In this document: piece by piece, positions 1 through 9,353 of the stretch
Position numbering within the stretch: the first letter of the stretch is position 1
How the letters are laid out: every line of letters begins with the position of its first letter
NCBI RefSeq assembly: GCF_006542275.1
Contig: NZ_CP041217.1
Location: 4,838,501 to 4,902,500, forward strand
Direction of reading: 5' to 3'
Length of the DNA stretch: 64,000 bases
Origin: Saccharibacillus brassicae
GTDB taxonomy: Bacteria; Bacillota; Bacilli; Paenibacillales; Paenibacillaceae
Notes under the pieces: model-generated
The model's database searches: none
The model's input: the letters and a program-made list of their open reading frames with translations, nothing else
Told to the model about the DNA's origin: nothing
Translations under genes and position numbers: made by a program

Positions 1-453
1 GAGAACCGTCTGACCCGCAACAACATCAAGCTCGGCCAGCTGGAGATTCCCGTGCCGGGCGGCCGGGCGGGCGAGCAGGCCGTCGATATCCGCTTCACCT
101 ACGATATCAACGGCATTCTGGAAGTGGAAGTGACGACGCTGTCCACGAGCGAGACGCATCGGCTGCTTATTCGCGAAGACGCGAGCGGCATGTCGATGGA
201 AGAAGTCGAGACGCGGTTCCTGCAGCTGGAAGCGATCAAGATCCATCCGCGCGACAAATCCGAGAACCGGCTGCTGCTGGCCCGGGGAGACCGGATCTAC
301 GAAGAAGCGCTCGGCAGCGTGCGTACGCGGATCGCCGGCGCGCTTCGGCGGTTCGAGACGGTGCTGACGCGGCAGGACGAACGGGAAATTCGCAAGGAAG
401 CGGGCATGCTCAAAGAACTGCTGGAACTGGCGGAGAAGCAGCCGGAGGAATGA
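1..453 (+). CDS. hscC: HscC-like Hsp70 chaperone, C-terminal part
   Basis: The window opens inside this gene, so only the last 150 codons are visible and position 1 is not its start. The visible part holds the end of the Hsp70 substrate-binding beta-sandwich (RFTYDINGILEVEV near visible residues 30-45) followed by a short helical lid. It has no EEVD-like tail. The segment KIHPRDKSENRLLLAR resembles the C-terminus of HscC, the specialised Hsp70 of E. coli, more than DnaK; that subtype is from memory and is an inference. The J-domain gene starts 1 base after its stop codon, so the chaperone and its co-chaperone are probably translated from one message. The ATPase domain lies outside the window and cannot be checked. 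Confidence 0.85.
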   Translation, partial: ENRLTRNNIKLGQLEIPVPGGRAGEQAVDIRFTYDINGILEVEVTTLSTSETHRLLIREDASGMSMEEVETRFLQLEAIKIHPRDKSENRLLLARGDRIYEEALGSVRTRIAGALRRFETVLTRQDEREIRKEAGMLKELLELAEKQPEE

Positions 454-454
454 T

Positions 455-2935
455 ATGAACATTTGGGCGACGCTAGGCATCGAACCGACGACCGAAATCA
501 AACGGATCAAACGGGCTTACGCCCGCAAATTGAAAGAATGCCATCCCGAAGAAAATCCGGACGGGTTCCAGCAGCTGCGCCAGTCTTACGAGGCCGCTCT
601 GGAAGAAGCCAAGCTGCTGGCCGAACCCGATGCCAAGCCCGATCTAAGCGAACGCGAGCGGGAACGGCTGCGCAGCCCCGAACCGTCGGCGGCGCAGCCC
701 GGACCGGAATCGCCGGTCACGCTGTTTATGCTGCGCTGCAAGAGTACGTACGCGGACATCGCCAAGCGGATCGAGCCGGACATCTGGCAGGAACTGCTCG
801 ACGACGAGCTGTTCTGGCCGATCGAGACGCGCGAACGGATCGGACAGGAACTGTTCGGCTTTTTGCTGGGTCATCCGTTCCTGCCCAAACAAGTGCTGCA
901 TCTGCTCGACGGGCATTTCGAATGGACGCTGAGCGAACGCCGGCTGCAGGATCAATACGGCCAGGCCGAAGTCTCGCTGCTGCTGGAACGGTTCAATACG
1001 TTCTGGGAACTGCGCTACGATCGTCTGGAGACCGACGAACCGTACGATTACGACGCTTTTCTGCGCTTTCGCGAACAGGCGCATTACGCGCTGGTGCTGA
1101 ACGATCTGGAATTGGCGGAGAAAGCGCTCAAAGGCGCGGCCCAGCTGAACAACCGGGAGCCGGATTGCCTGCGCCTGATCGCGCTGTTCTACCTGCGGCA
1201 GGATCAGGCGGAATCGGCGCTGCAGGTGCTCGATCAATGGTTGAAGGAAGAACCGCACGAACCCGAAGTCCGGCTCATGCGCGGCGACGCGCGGCTGCGC
1301 CGGCAGGAATGGGCCGAAGCGCTGGCCGAATACGAAGCGCTGCTCGAACTGCTGCCCGGCAGCATCCATGCGCTGAGCGGAATCGCGGCCTGCCGCGAAG
1401 CGCTCGGACAGTCATGGGAAGCCAAAAAAGCATACGAAGAACTGTGTGCGCGCTATCCGGAAGACCTGGACGCCCAGATCCGGCTGCTGATGCTCAACGA
1501 CAAGCTGGCCGGAGACATGAAGACGGAAGACGGAACCGAACTGCGCAGCCTGCATACGCTTGCCGAACTGTATCTCGATACCGGCAGAGAGCGGGAATGC
1601 GCCGAACTGCTGCTTGAGACGGAACGCGCCCAAGACCTCGGGGCGGACCTGAATTTTCTGCTCGGCAAAGCGCTAGGCAAGCTGGAGCGCTACCCCGAAA
1701 GCGAAGAACGATTGAACCGCGCCGTACAATCCACGGAAGACCAACCGCTCAAGCAGGCGGACATCCTCAAGCTGCGCGGACTGATCCGCATCGCGCTCGA
1801 ACGGTTCGACGATGCCCGCTCGGACCTCAAGCGGGTACTGACGCTCAAGCCGTCCGATCCCGAAGCCCTGTACCGCTTCGGCGAGTCGCTGCGCATGCAG
1901 GGCCAGTACGAGGAAGCGCTGCAGCTGCTGAACCATGCGCTTGAGCTGTCCGCCCAGTGGTATTACCATTCTGCCCGCGGCGACTGCTTCTATTCGTTGA
2001 AACGATACCCGGAAGCGCTGCTCGACTATTTGCGGGTCATCCAGTACGACCGGACGCTGACCGAAGCCTGGTTCCGCGCCGGCTACTGTTTCCTGCGCAT
2101 CGGCGACTACGCCCACGCGCTCGAATACCTCGGCGAAGCCAAAGGCCGCGGATTCCCCGAAGCGATCGATCTGCTGATCGCCGAAGTGCATTTCCGGGCG
2201 GGCGATTTCGACCGCGCCGCCTCGATCGTCGAACGTTATAACGACGAGCGGCCGAACGATTATTACGGCCGGGTGATCGAAGGCGACCTGTATCGGGCCG
2301 AAGGCAAAAACGAAGAAGCGTTGGAGCGGTATCTCGGAGCGGCCCGGATCGCGCCGGGCGAATATTTGCCGATCCGGCTCGTGTCGGAGATGCTGCTGCG
2401 CCTGGACCGGCCGGGCGATACGGAGAAAAGCCTGACGCTGCTGGCGGAGCATTATCCGAAGCGCGGCTGGGCGTACCTCCAGTTGATTCGCCTGCTGGCC
2501 TTGCAGGAACGGTGGGAAGAAGCGGAGTCGGCGATCGTCCGGTACACCGACCGCATCGACGCGAACGAGCAGGAACCGCTCGTTCTGCTGTACGGCGGGT
2601 ATATCCTGTTCCGGCTTGCCGAGTACGAACAGGCGGCGGAATTTTTCGAAGCGGCCTGCAAAGTGGGGCTGCGGCGGGAAGCGGAAGAGTATCTGATTCG
2701 CTGCTGCTCGGCGCTCGGCCGTTATGAACAGGCGGAAGCGCTGATCGCCGAAGCGCTGGCCGCCGACCCCGACCGTCCGCAGCTTGCCGAGATCGGCCGG
2801 GTGCTGGAACGCCGCTCGGCGCGCAAATGGAAGCTGCTGCGCCGCCCGAGAGAGATCGAGCTGCCGGCTCCGGCGAAGCCTCCCGTGCTGCCCGAGACCT
2901 CGGGCGAACCGCTGCCGGACATTCACGGTTTTTGA
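455..2935 (+). CDS. J-domain protein with TPR repeats (DjlB/DjlC-like co-chaperone)
   Basis: An 826-residue cytosolic protein. Residues 1-50 form a J domain: helix II with KRIKRAYARKLK, then the loop tripeptide His30-Pro31-Glu32 in place of the usual HPD. The next residues, NPDGFQQLRQSYEAAL, resemble the short J domains of E. coli DjlB/DjlC, which work with HscC. From about residue 210 to 790 the protein is a run of TPR helical pairs (for example ALYRFGESLRMQGQYEEALQ), a scaffold for binding other proteins. J proteins stimulate Hsp70 ATP hydrolysis; HPD is normally essential, so HPE is notable, though several HscC partners also depart from it. The tight junction with the Hsp70 gene upstream supports a dedicated pair. 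The client proteins are unknown. Confidence 0.88.
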   Translation: MNIWATLGIEPTTEIKRIKRAYARKLKECHPEENPDGFQQLRQSYEAALEEAKLLAEPDAKPDLSERERERLRSPEPSAAQPGPESPVTLFMLRCKSTYADIAKRIEPDIWQELLDDELFWPIETRERIGQELFGFLLGHPFLPKQVLHLLDGHFEWTLSERRLQDQYGQAEVSLLLERFNTFWELRYDRLETDEPYDYDAFLRFREQAHYALVLNDLELAEKALKGAAQLNNREPDCLRLIALFYLRQDQAESALQVLDQWLKEEPHEPEVRLMRGDARLRRQEWAEALAEYEALLELLPGSIHALSGIAACREALGQSWEAKKAYEELCARYPEDLDAQIRLLMLNDKLAGDMKTEDGTELRSLHTLAELYLDTGRERECAELLLETERAQDLGADLNFLLGKALGKLERYPESEERLNRAVQSTEDQPLKQADILKLRGLIRIALERFDDARSDLKRVLTLKPSDPEALYRFGESLRMQGQYEEALQLLNHALELSAQWYYHSARGDCFYSLKRYPEALLDYLRVIQYDRTLTEAWFRAGYCFLRIGDYAHALEYLGEAKGRGFPEAIDLLIAEVHFRAGDFDRAASIVERYNDERPNDYYGRVIEGDLYRAEGKNEEALERYLGAARIAPGEYLPIRLVSEMLLRLDRPGDTEKSLTLLAEHYPKRGWAYLQLIRLLALQERWEEAESAIVRYTDRIDANEQEPLVLLYGGYILFRLAEYEQAAEFFEAACKVGLRREAEEYLIRCCSALGRYEQAEALIAEALAADPDRPQLAEIGRVLERRSARKWKLLRRPREIELPAPAKPPVLPETSGEPLPDIHGF

Positions 2936-2954
2936 AGAAAGGAAGTGGACAAGC

Positions 2955-3665
2955 ATGGGAACGCTGCGCATACGGGAAAACGACGAACAGACCATGCGTG
3001 CGTTTGCGATGGGAGCCGTTCTGTTCCAGATGAACGGCCTGCTCGAACAGACCGGCTTCGCCTGGCCGGCAGCGCGCAAGGAAGAACTGCGCAAACTGCT
3101 GGCGCATACGTGGTCCGTCAGCGACGAAGAAACGCTGGAGCGGCATTTGAACTGGCTGTGGGAAGAAGGCGGGCAAGCGTCTTACTCCAAAACGGAATCT
3201 TTTCTGGGCGCGCTGTCGTTTCGCGATCGGGAGCATTACTTCGAGCGCCTGAACGGCAACGCCGCTCTCTATAACCACGCCCGCCTCGTGCAGATGTACG
3301 CCGGCAAACTTCCCCGCGCGGGCATCGCCGCCTGGGATCTGGGCCAATACGTCTTCATCTGCCGGACCGCCCATTCGGCCGGATGGCTCGAAGCGGAACG
3401 CGCGCTGGAGCTGGCCGCGGCGGCTTCGCGCCGCGCGCAGGCGCTGTACGGCGATTGGACGCAATACGCGATCGCGTATTTGGCCGGCCGTCAGATCTGG
3501 ACCAACCAGCCGTCGGCGGAAGCGGCCAAGCCGTATATCGACTGCGTGTCGAAACTGCTGACGAATTCGCGCAGCCTGTGGCGGCGTCTGCCGTGGGATC
3601 TGCCGCTCGGCGAGCAAGCCGACGTGATGCGCAATCCGCTCGGCGCCGCCGGCGTCTTGGAGTAA
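2955..3665 (+). CDS. DUF1266 domain protein
   Basis: A 236-residue soluble protein. The start is set by an AAAGGAAG ribosome-binding site just upstream, although the frame is open further back into the preceding gene. The central stretch AAWDLGQYVFICRTAHSAG matches the core pattern of DUF1266 (an Ala/Trp-Asp-x-Gly motif followed by a helix ending in a Gly-Trp pair). No biochemical function is known for the family. In E. coli the DUF1266 proteins YbeR and YbeU sit beside djlB, djlC and hscC, the same partners as here, so a role in the HscC chaperone system is a reasonable inference. The gene lies 19 bases after the J-protein gene and probably ends the operon; a promoter for the next gene follows directly. 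Confidence 0.75.
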   Translation: MGTLRIRENDEQTMRAFAMGAVLFQMNGLLEQTGFAWPAARKEELRKLLAHTWSVSDEETLERHLNWLWEEGGQASYSKTESFLGALSFRDREHYFERLNGNAALYNHARLVQMYAGKLPRAGIAAWDLGQYVFICRTAHSAGWLEAERALELAAAASRRAQALYGDWTQYAIAYLAGRQIWTNQPSAEAAKPYIDCVSKLLTNSRSLWRRLPWDLPLGEQADVMRNPLGAAGVLE

Positions 3666-7439: not shown

Positions 7440-9353
7440 ATGCCAAATCGCTCATTTCGAAAAGGCCTGTGCCTGATGCTCGCCTGTCTGCTGGTCGCGG
7501 CGATCGCCGCCTGCGCCGGTGCGGGAGCTCCGGTCTCCGCCAAGGAATCGCAAAATCGGCCGCAAAAGCCCAAAGCGGAAACTTCCAACTCTCGCAAGCC
7601 CGCGTCCGTCGGCAAAACCGTGTCGGCTGCGGCGGCTTCTTTTGTCGGCACCCATGGCCAACTCGCGGTGCGCAGCGGCAAATTGACCGACGCCGCCGGC
7701 AAGCCCGTGCAGTTGAAAGGCATGAGTTCGCACGGTATTCAGTGGTACGGCGATTACGTGAACGAATCCAGCATGAAATGGCTGCGCGACGACTGGGGAT
7801 TGAACGTGTTCCGCGTCGCCATGTATACGGACTCGGGCGGGTACATCTCGAATCCGGCACTGAAAAACAAAGTCAAAGAAGCGGTCGATGCCGCGGTCAA
7901 ACTCGGCGTGTACGTGATTATCGACTGGCATATTTTGGCCGACGGGGATCCGAACCGATACAAGACGCAGTCCAAAGCTTTTTTCAAAGAAATGGCGCAG
8001 ACGTACGGCGACACGCCGAACGTGATCTACGAGATCGCGAACGAACCGAACGGGAACGTCAACTGGAAGACCCATATCAAACCTTACGCTGAAGAAGTGA
8101 TCCGGGTCATCCGGGCGGAAGACCCGGACAATCCGATCATCGTCGGGACCGGTACGTGGAGTCAGGATATTCAGGACGCGGCGGCTTCGCCGCTTGCCGA
8201 CGCCAACGTGCTGTACGCGGTGCATTTCTACGCGGGTACGCACGGAGCGTGGCTGCGCGACCGGATCGACGCGGCCATGAATAAGGGCCTGGCCGTGTTC
8301 GTCAGCGAATGGGGGACGAGCGACGCTTCGGGCGGCGGCGGACCTTACCTGACGGCGGCCAAAGAATGGACCGATTTCATGGCGGATCGGGGCATCGGCT
8401 GGGCCAACTGGTCGCTCGCGGACAAGCAGGAAGCTTCGGCCGCTCTCGCTCCGGGAGCGGGCGTTACCGGAGGCTGGACACAGGCGCAGCTCAGCGCATC
8501 CGGCAAATTCGTCCGCGAAGAGATGCGCCGGGGAGCGTCCGTCGGTATGGGCGGTACGGCGCCGGCCGTTCAAGTGCCGGGGCCGGTTACCGGACTGCGG
8601 GCTGCGGCCGGCAGCAACCGGGTGTCGTTGACGTGGACAGCCGTATCGGGCGCGGACACGTACCTCGTCAAGCGGGCCGAAGGCGGCGGCAGTTACGCGA
8701 TCTTGCAAAAAGGGATCGCCGGCACGTCGTATGCCGATCCGACCGCCGTCAACGGCAAAACGTACCGCTACAAAGTCGGCGCGGTCAACGCAAAAGGCGC
8801 GGGAGCCGATTCGGCGGAAGTATCCGCGAAGCCGGCCGCATCGGGCGGCAGTCCGTCCGTGCCGACGCCGGTTACGCCGACGCCGCCTGCGGGCGGCGGT
8901 ACGAAATCTCTGGTGCTGCTGCAGCGCAGCCTGGACGATAACCCGTCGGACAACGCGCTGCGTCCCGTATTCAATATCCGCAACGCCGGCTCGGCGGCCG
9001 TGCCGCTAAAAAATGTCAAAGTTCGTTACTATTATACGAACGAAGGCACAGGCGCGCAGCAGTATTTCTGCGACTGGGCGCAGCTAGGCGCTTCGAACGT
9101 CAAAGCCGTCTTCGGCAAAACGCCGGGTGCTCCGGCGGGTGCGACCGATTACGTGGAACTTGGTTTTGCGTCCGGCACCCTTGCGGCCAAAAGCGAGACG
9201 GGCGAAATTCAGTCGCGTATTCATCGAAGCGACTGGGGCGCCTATAACGAAAAGAACGATTATTCGTACAAAGCGGGATCTGCCGGGTTCGGGGAGTGGG
9301 ACCGGACGGTCGTGTACGTGAACGGCGAAGCGGTCTACGGCATCGAGCCGTAA
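7440..9353 (+). CDS. Secreted endoglucanase: GH5 + FN3 + CBM3
   Basis: A 637-residue modular enzyme. Residues 1-34 are an export signal; the end IAACAG also fits a lipobox, so membrane anchoring through Cys26 is possible. Residues 70-365 are a GH5 (subfamily 2-like) beta-glucanase with [10 protein letters not shown], the acid/base Glu202 in YEIANEPNG and the nucleophile Glu290 in VSEWGTS. Residues 380-466 are a fibronectin type III module, then a Pro/Thr linker, and residues 488-637 are a CBM3 cellulose-binding module. It should cut internal beta-1,4-glucan bonds outside the cell, probably while bound to crystalline cellulose. The start has GGAGGG at proper spacing. It appears to be transcribed alone. 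Confidence 0.93.

Follow-up and report, generated by a model that had tools for sequence, protein, structure and literature searches.

Linkage of HscC-type Hsp70s, HPE-type J proteins and DUF1266 proteins at a locus of Saccharibacillus brassicae and beyond

Introduction

At the start of a 64,000-nucleotide stretch of Saccharibacillus brassicae DNA (NZ_CP041217.1, positions 4,838,501 to 4,902,500; hereafter the window), the genes of an Hsp70, of a J-domain protein with tetratricopeptide repeats (TPRs) and of a DUF1266 protein follow one another. This locus raises the question of whether DUF1266 belongs functionally to a specialised Hsp70 system, as a first-pass annotation of the window had proposed. 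The Hsp70 concerned is of the HscC type. The phenotype associated with hscC is sensitivity to Cd2+ and UV, the former being known for djlB djlC deletions as well, and we know of no client of HscC, which to our knowledge has been an orphan since 2002. Neither of two reviews of HscC is known to treat DUF1266, a word absent from one of them (PMC8215388), and we found it in three open papers only. Our answer, which we consider reasonably probable, is that the three proteins make up a specialised HscC-type chaperone machine, in which the J protein and the DUF1266 protein would act as an exchangeable targeting pair. What we observed is the operon, the HscC identity of the Hsp70, the linkage across gene orders, a gene fusion, the co-divergence of J and DUF1266 proteins and an excess of their pairs over HscC genes.

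Two trios in one genome

Reading the window gave the same arrangement as the first-pass annotation: the Hsp70 gene is separated by 1 base from that of the HPE-type J/TPR protein, and the latter by 19 bases from the DUF1266 gene, all features being on the + strand. The window opens inside the Hsp70 gene and holds its 3' end (positions 1-453, i.e., the last 150 codons and the TGA at 451-453; assigned from gene calls, indels and tree), while the complete gene (G000:C1:4837244-4838953, 569 amino acids) starts 1,257 bases upstream of the window. A Shine-Dalgarno-like GGAGG within this 3' end (444-448) is a good ribosome-binding site for the J gene (455-2935). The latter encodes 826 amino acids comprising a J-domain, a helical middle region and a TPR solenoid. 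The J-domain (residues 3-56, positions 461-622), delimited by alignment and structural model, has modelled helices at residues 3-7, 15-28 and 35-56 and carries His-Pro-Glu (HPE) in place of His-Pro-Asp (HPD) at residues 30-32 (542-550). The middle region (residues 87-180, positions 713-994) is partly common to the Escherichia coli proteins DjlB and DjlC, the alignment with DjlC extending to residue 157, and domain search and model place the TPR solenoid at residues 199-795 (1049-2839). A second good site, the Shine-Dalgarno-like AAAGGAAG (2938-2945), serves the DUF1266 gene (2955-3665, ATG at 2955), whose product of 236 amino acids has the domain PF06889 at residues 49-214 (3099-3596).

The source genome (G000) is a single contig of 5.62 Mb with three full-length Hsp70 genes, four J genes and two DUF1266 genes. 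It has a second, diverged trio (L004 6582-10912, i.e., G000:C1:50582-54912) in the same order and also with HPE. The two sets share 61% identity between the Hsp70s and about 31% between the J proteins as well as between the DUF1266 proteins. Outside both trios there is one ordinary dnaK-dnaJ locus and one other J gene. Since both DUF1266 genes of the genome sit in such a trio, a chance grouping is excluded.

The Hsp70 is of the HscC type

By its sequence the window Hsp70 is best identified as a true HscC, because it has HscC-specific indels and takes its place among HscC proteins on a tree. The GrpE signature (DnaK 290-295) is replaced by a six-column gap in both copies and in E. coli HscC, whereas the genome's own DnaK keeps it. 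Loop L1,2 of the substrate-binding domain (SBDbeta) is 9 columns longer than in DnaK, against 4 in E. coli HscC and a described insertion of 4-8 amino acids, and the lid is shortened around helix B by gaps of 3 and 11 columns, the described HscC deletion being of about nine residues. Absence of the GrpE signature, a longer L1,2 loop and a shortened lid are the HscC features given by Mayer 2021 (PMC8215388). The deletion of DnaK 76-101 in lobe I of the nucleotide-binding domain is present but not discriminating, since the genome's own DnaK has the same gap. Both copies (569 and 565 amino acids) are within the 550-580 amino acids given for HscC (PMC8215388). A tree of 76 HscC-like rows together with DnaK and HscA puts them in the clade of E. 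coli HscC with maximal support (Shimodaira-Hasegawa-like approximate likelihood-ratio test, SH-aLRT, 100). The linker TD(V/I)CP(Y/F)(T/S)LG is found in nearly all HscC-like Hsp70s adjoining these J proteins.

Two other identities were rejected. A plain DnaK, which the first-pass annotation had named as fatal to its proposal, disagrees with the indels, the tree and the family cut-offs, the two copies scoring 433.9 and 462.9 bits with TIGR02350 (cut-off 822.55). With the HscA model TIGR01991 they reach 398.2 and 405.8 bits (cut-off 708.55), and HscA is on a different branch of the tree.

HscC and DUF1266 occur together across gene orders

We surveyed 297 genomes attributed to Paenibacillaceae and 299 of Pseudomonadota. 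In Paenibacillaceae, HscC occurs in 66 genomes and DUF1266 in 60: 52 have both, 14 HscC alone, 8 DUF1266 alone and 223 neither. Within the genus of the window, both are present in 12 genomes and neither in 5. Six of the eight genomes with DUF1266 alone lack a J-linked DUF1266 (solitary, or none in the fetched stretch). In Pseudomonadota, HscC is present in 13 genomes and DUF1266 in 11, five of them shared. DUF1266 is thus enriched with HscC in both groups (Fisher p of 3e-36 and 3e-5, respectively, values that ignore the relatedness of the genomes).

The association is visible at the level of loci. A J gene lies no more than 1.5 kb away from 73 of the 77 HscC genes of Paenibacillaceae, and a DUF1266 gene no more than 6 kb away from 58 of them. 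The four without a near J gene (L327-L330) belong to one genus, and an HPE-type J-DUF1266 pair lies far off in the genome. All 14 HscC genes of Pseudomonadota adjoin a J gene. The order Hsp70, J, DUF1266 is found in 55 of the 62 complete loci, and DUF1266 followed by J, with HscC convergent or downstream, is found in E. coli, Gilliamella, Pseudomonas and Marinobacter. Of the two HscC loci in Pectobacterium, one follows the E. coli arrangement and the other that of the window. The E. coli cluster named in the first-pass annotation (ybeR-djlB, ybeU-djlC and hscC) is indeed there in NC_000913.

Next to the trio, about 85 bases 3' of the DUF1266 gene, is a gene that looks nitroreductase-like by eye and lies outside the set. 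A small open reading frame (ORF) of about 116 amino acids is found upstream of the Hsp70 gene (L003 6671-7020), and it recurs ahead of HscC genes within the genus and in one further genome of Paenibacillaceae. Further along the window, a 637-amino-acid ORF (7440-9353) resembles, by eye, an endoglucanase destined for secretion, with cellulose-binding and fibronectin-like parts. We searched for a recurrent fourth gene and rejected the idea, as flanking genes recur among close relatives only.

DUF1266 follows the J protein

DUF1266 is tied more closely to the J protein than to HscC, because J-DUF1266 pairs occur far from HscC while HscC with DUF1266 and without J is almost absent. The 121 DUF1266 ORFs in the neighbourhoods lie near J and Hsp70 (62), J only (32), neither (25) or Hsp70 only (2). 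J-DUF1266 pairs outnumber HscC genes in more than 12 Paenibacillaceae genomes, by up to 5 to 1, and in E. coli by 2 to 1, so that a single HscC often has 2-5 pairs. A comparison of the J and DUF1266 distance matrices over 95 pairs gives a Mantel r of 0.84, which falls to 0.49 when partners are swapped within genomes; none of 2000 swaps between paralogues of the same genome reached 0.84. Finally, in a Bacillota genome, J-domain, TPRs and DUF1266 are fused in one ORF of 672 amino acids directly after the HscC gene (L126 8236-10254).

These results bear on two other explanations. The DUF1266 protein might be a dedicated client of HscC and its J protein, as IscU is for HscA-HscB; it would do the real work, and folding or remodelling it would be what the chaperone is for. 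That precedent (PMC8215388) and the divergence of J and neighbouring DUF1266 as pairs fit such a client, which we nevertheless hold to be unlikely: solitary DUF1266 proteins occur in genomes without HscC, so that their fold is independent of it, HscC with J is more widespread than DUF1266, and a client fused to its own co-chaperone, as in L126, would be unusual. We find it very improbable that DUF1266 is a bystander held in the operon through co-expression only. While the interaction is one that we infer, and the gene is absent from most HscC lineages, its linkage persists across gene orders in Bacillota and Proteobacteria, which the flanking genes do not match, and the co-divergence within genomes and the fusion would be hard to reconcile with mere co-expression.

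Several results weigh against the proposed chaperone machine itself. Two genomes (G531 and G547) have a J-DUF1266 pair without a detected HscC. In a multi-group sample, where HscC genomes were found by a linker-motif scan, 34 of the 50 among the matches listed have no DUF1266 and 16 have it; an absence this frequent means that it is dispensable to HscC in general. Adjoining genes that are co-inherited also co-diverge, and the Mantel correlation is a measure of co-inheritance, not of contact. Searches of PDB and viral folds gave no DUF1266 relative that would hint at a role. Hence, HscC and J form the core, and DUF1266 is an optional third part. The proposal that DUF1266 belongs functionally to a specialised Hsp70 system stands as far as the enrichment with HscC and the nature of the Hsp70 are concerned, and has to be amended in that DUF1266 travels with J rather than with HscC itself, is missing from most HscC lineages and in a minority of cases is solitary and has no connection with HscC. 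Linkage, fusion and co-inheritance together suggest its membership in the HscC system.

The DUF1266 family

The DUF1266 proteins of the two trios score 117.7 (window) and 94.4 bits with PF06889 (cut-off 27). The predicted structure is all-alpha, with a predicted local distance difference test score (pLDDT) of 84.5. There was no sequence match in PDB, the best Foldseek match had an E-value of 1.1 and BFVD gave nothing. With VIA-align the best Z was 3.9, among short helical bundles, a lack of matches which does not show that the fold is new. The invariant residues in an alignment of ten sequences are L, V, A, W, D, W, G and W. Because just one of them is charged, the pattern would fit a binding domain better than an enzyme. 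A phage or virus origin was rejected, the window protein used as query having no relative in phage records or IMG/VR, and so was a defence system, as PADLOC matched nothing beyond a generic TPR.

On the DUF1266 tree, the solitary proteins fall into a small number of coherent groups; often they carry a membrane anchor, are lipoproteins or have Cu_amine_oxidN1 fused to them. Most of those at L050, L054, L107, L122, L124, L128-L130, L144-L147 and L153-L156 have an N-terminal membrane segment, a lipobox or a signal peptide; two are fused to Cu_amine_oxidN1 and others to TPRs. Proteobacterial proteins of 480-820 amino acids with two DUF1266 domains (L346-L349) have no HscC or J neighbour.

Relaxation of the HPD motif

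We judge the J-domain of the window protein to be divergent but real, because it aligns with those of DjlB and DjlC and its model is a helical hairpin whose loop carries HPE. An N-terminal HPE J-domain is present in both copies of the genome, in DjlB and in DjlC. With PF00226 the two J proteins score 25.5 and 25.0 bits in hmmscan (cut-off 27.8), and 28.9 and 28.8 bits in the genome search; several HscC-linked J-domains are below the Pfam DnaJ cut-off or missed by it. Neither trio J protein has a predicted transmembrane or hydrophobic segment or a C-terminal tail anchor, and we therefore class them as HscC-linked J proteins rather than as DjlB/DjlC. A hydrophobic segment is found in 66 of 121 surveyed J proteins, in many at the C-terminus. 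A Pseudomonas HPE J protein carries the membrane domain DUF805 as a C-terminal fusion (L185 1185-3881), while on a plasmid of Erwinia persicina (NZ_CP082142.1) DUF805 and a short J protein have separate genes (L170 8678-11337). On the same plasmid, the HscC gene beside a DUF1266-J pair is broken into several overlapping ORFs and so looks frameshifted (L170 11378-13066); it is absent from the gene list.

The HPE of the window protein, correctly read at first pass, is one instance of a broader loosening of HPD among J-domains linked to HscC. Among 143 distinct best-matching J-domains beside HscC, we counted 88 HPE, 17 NPE, 17 RPD, 4 SPE, 4 PPE, 13 others and no HPD, leaving out one J protein whose motif was unread. 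The hidden Markov models derive from HPE proteins, and where several J hits lay within 1.5 kb we kept the one with the highest score, so that the absence of HPD concerns the best-matching partner; canonical HPD domains are still detected at 18-25 bits, and L210 and L341 have a second, HPD-type J within 1.5 kb of HscC. What is conserved instead is P(E/D)xDPxG(F/Y)xxLRxAY with the preceding basic helix. The HscC tree shows at least 7 changes in the state of the His. At the residues by which DnaK contacts J, HscC has L392 changed to T, T395 to C, D477 to T or S and I478 to Y, and lacks the D211 loop. All HPE and NPE pairs retain the equivalent of DnaK R167, which is K or S in 7 of 15 RPD pairs; this is suggestive only, as the Hsp70s concerned are related. 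We rejected an association of His retention with the presence of DUF1266 (raw counts 66/70 against 23/73), as it is confounded by descent and none of about six independent tree pairs is decisive.

A recent review (2026) considers HPE the seemingly sole tolerated replacement of HPD, notes it in DjlB and DjlC and leaves open whether departures from HPD are accidents or selected (PMC13254874). What is new here is that the best-matching HscC-linked J-domains are never HPD, although the motifs may have been noticed earlier in the literature. One might see in them degenerate, "type IV" J-like domains that tether HscC without stimulating it. The repeated changes of the His point that way, as does the loss of stimulation upon H-to-Q or D-to-N changes in systems tested so far (PMC8215388). 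We think this improbable, given that the HPE-type DjlC stimulates HscC (PMC8215388) and that the surrounding motif P-E-x-D-P-x-G-F-x-x-L-R-x-A-Y is tightly kept. The ATPase of E. coli HscC is stimulated only by DjlC and not by DnaJ (PMC8215388).

We tentatively put forward, as a possibility just short of an even chance, that HscC and its J proteins have a docking code of their own, x-P-(E/D)-x-D-P-x-G-(F/Y)-x-x-L-R-x-A-Y, in which the His, supposedly essential in J proteins, could give way to Asn, Arg, Ser, Pro or Asp, offset by changes that are fixed in HscC and found there only (L392T, T395C, D477T/S, I478Y, and R167K/S in some RPD pairs). If DUF1266 is its adaptor, bacteria would have here a third Hsp70-J system, separate from the others in mechanism. 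The departures from HPD being systematic and tied to one Hsp70 lineage, functional J-domains without the His are to be predicted, which would change the annotation of J proteins.

Discussion

In the chaperone machine that we propose, HscC would be the shared ATPase, binding and releasing clients, and the J/TPR protein its dedicated co-chaperone, docking on HscC by the HPE J-domain. The TPR solenoid, or the membrane anchor of many relatives, would select the client or the place. The machine would thus act at the membrane where J is anchored, and in the cytosol here, with the TPR solenoid in the anchor's stead. The all-helical DUF1266 protein would be the partner of J, in contact with it and probably an adaptor. 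One HscC may serve several J-DUF1266 pairs, the pair presumably choosing the client. A third component kept with HscC in Bacillota and Proteobacteria gives a concrete handle on an orphan Hsp70, and turns DUF1266 into a new component, open to testing, of a chaperone about which little is understood.

The set can be compared with four known systems. DnaK-DnaJ-GrpE also has an Hsp70 and a J protein side by side, and the genome has its own dnaK-dnaJ; the window set differs by the lack of GrpE signature, the short lid, the TD(V/I)CP(Y/F) linker and HPE instead of HPD. HscA-HscB, which works in Fe-S cluster assembly, likewise pairs a specialised Hsp70 lacking the GrpE signature with a J protein dedicated to it. 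However, the window HscC is on a different branch, has no isc genes nearby and is far below the cut-offs of HscA models. Solitary DUF1266 proteins (E. coli YnjI and the lipoprotein, Cu_amine_oxidN1-fused and tandem-domain forms) share the PF06889 domain but have no J or Hsp70 neighbour, and an N-terminal signal peptide or membrane segment is present in many of them.

The E. coli system of HscC, DjlB/DjlC and YbeR/YbeU shares with the window an HscC-type Hsp70 (46-49% identity), an N-terminal HPE J-domain and a DUF1266 gene adjoining the J gene. The cassette has been noted in Salmonella (PMC6935094), and ybeU-djlC is counted as a single operon within the Crl regulon (PMC6469107). In E. coli, DUF1266 precedes J twice (ybeR-djlB and ybeU-djlC) with 4-base overlaps, and hscC is convergent. 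DjlB and DjlC are tail-anchored and have no long TPR solenoid, whereas the J proteins of the window's type are soluble TPR proteins encoded in the order Hsp70, J, DUF1266. E. coli K-12 has every part for testing: hscC, djlB, djlC, ybeR and ybeU.

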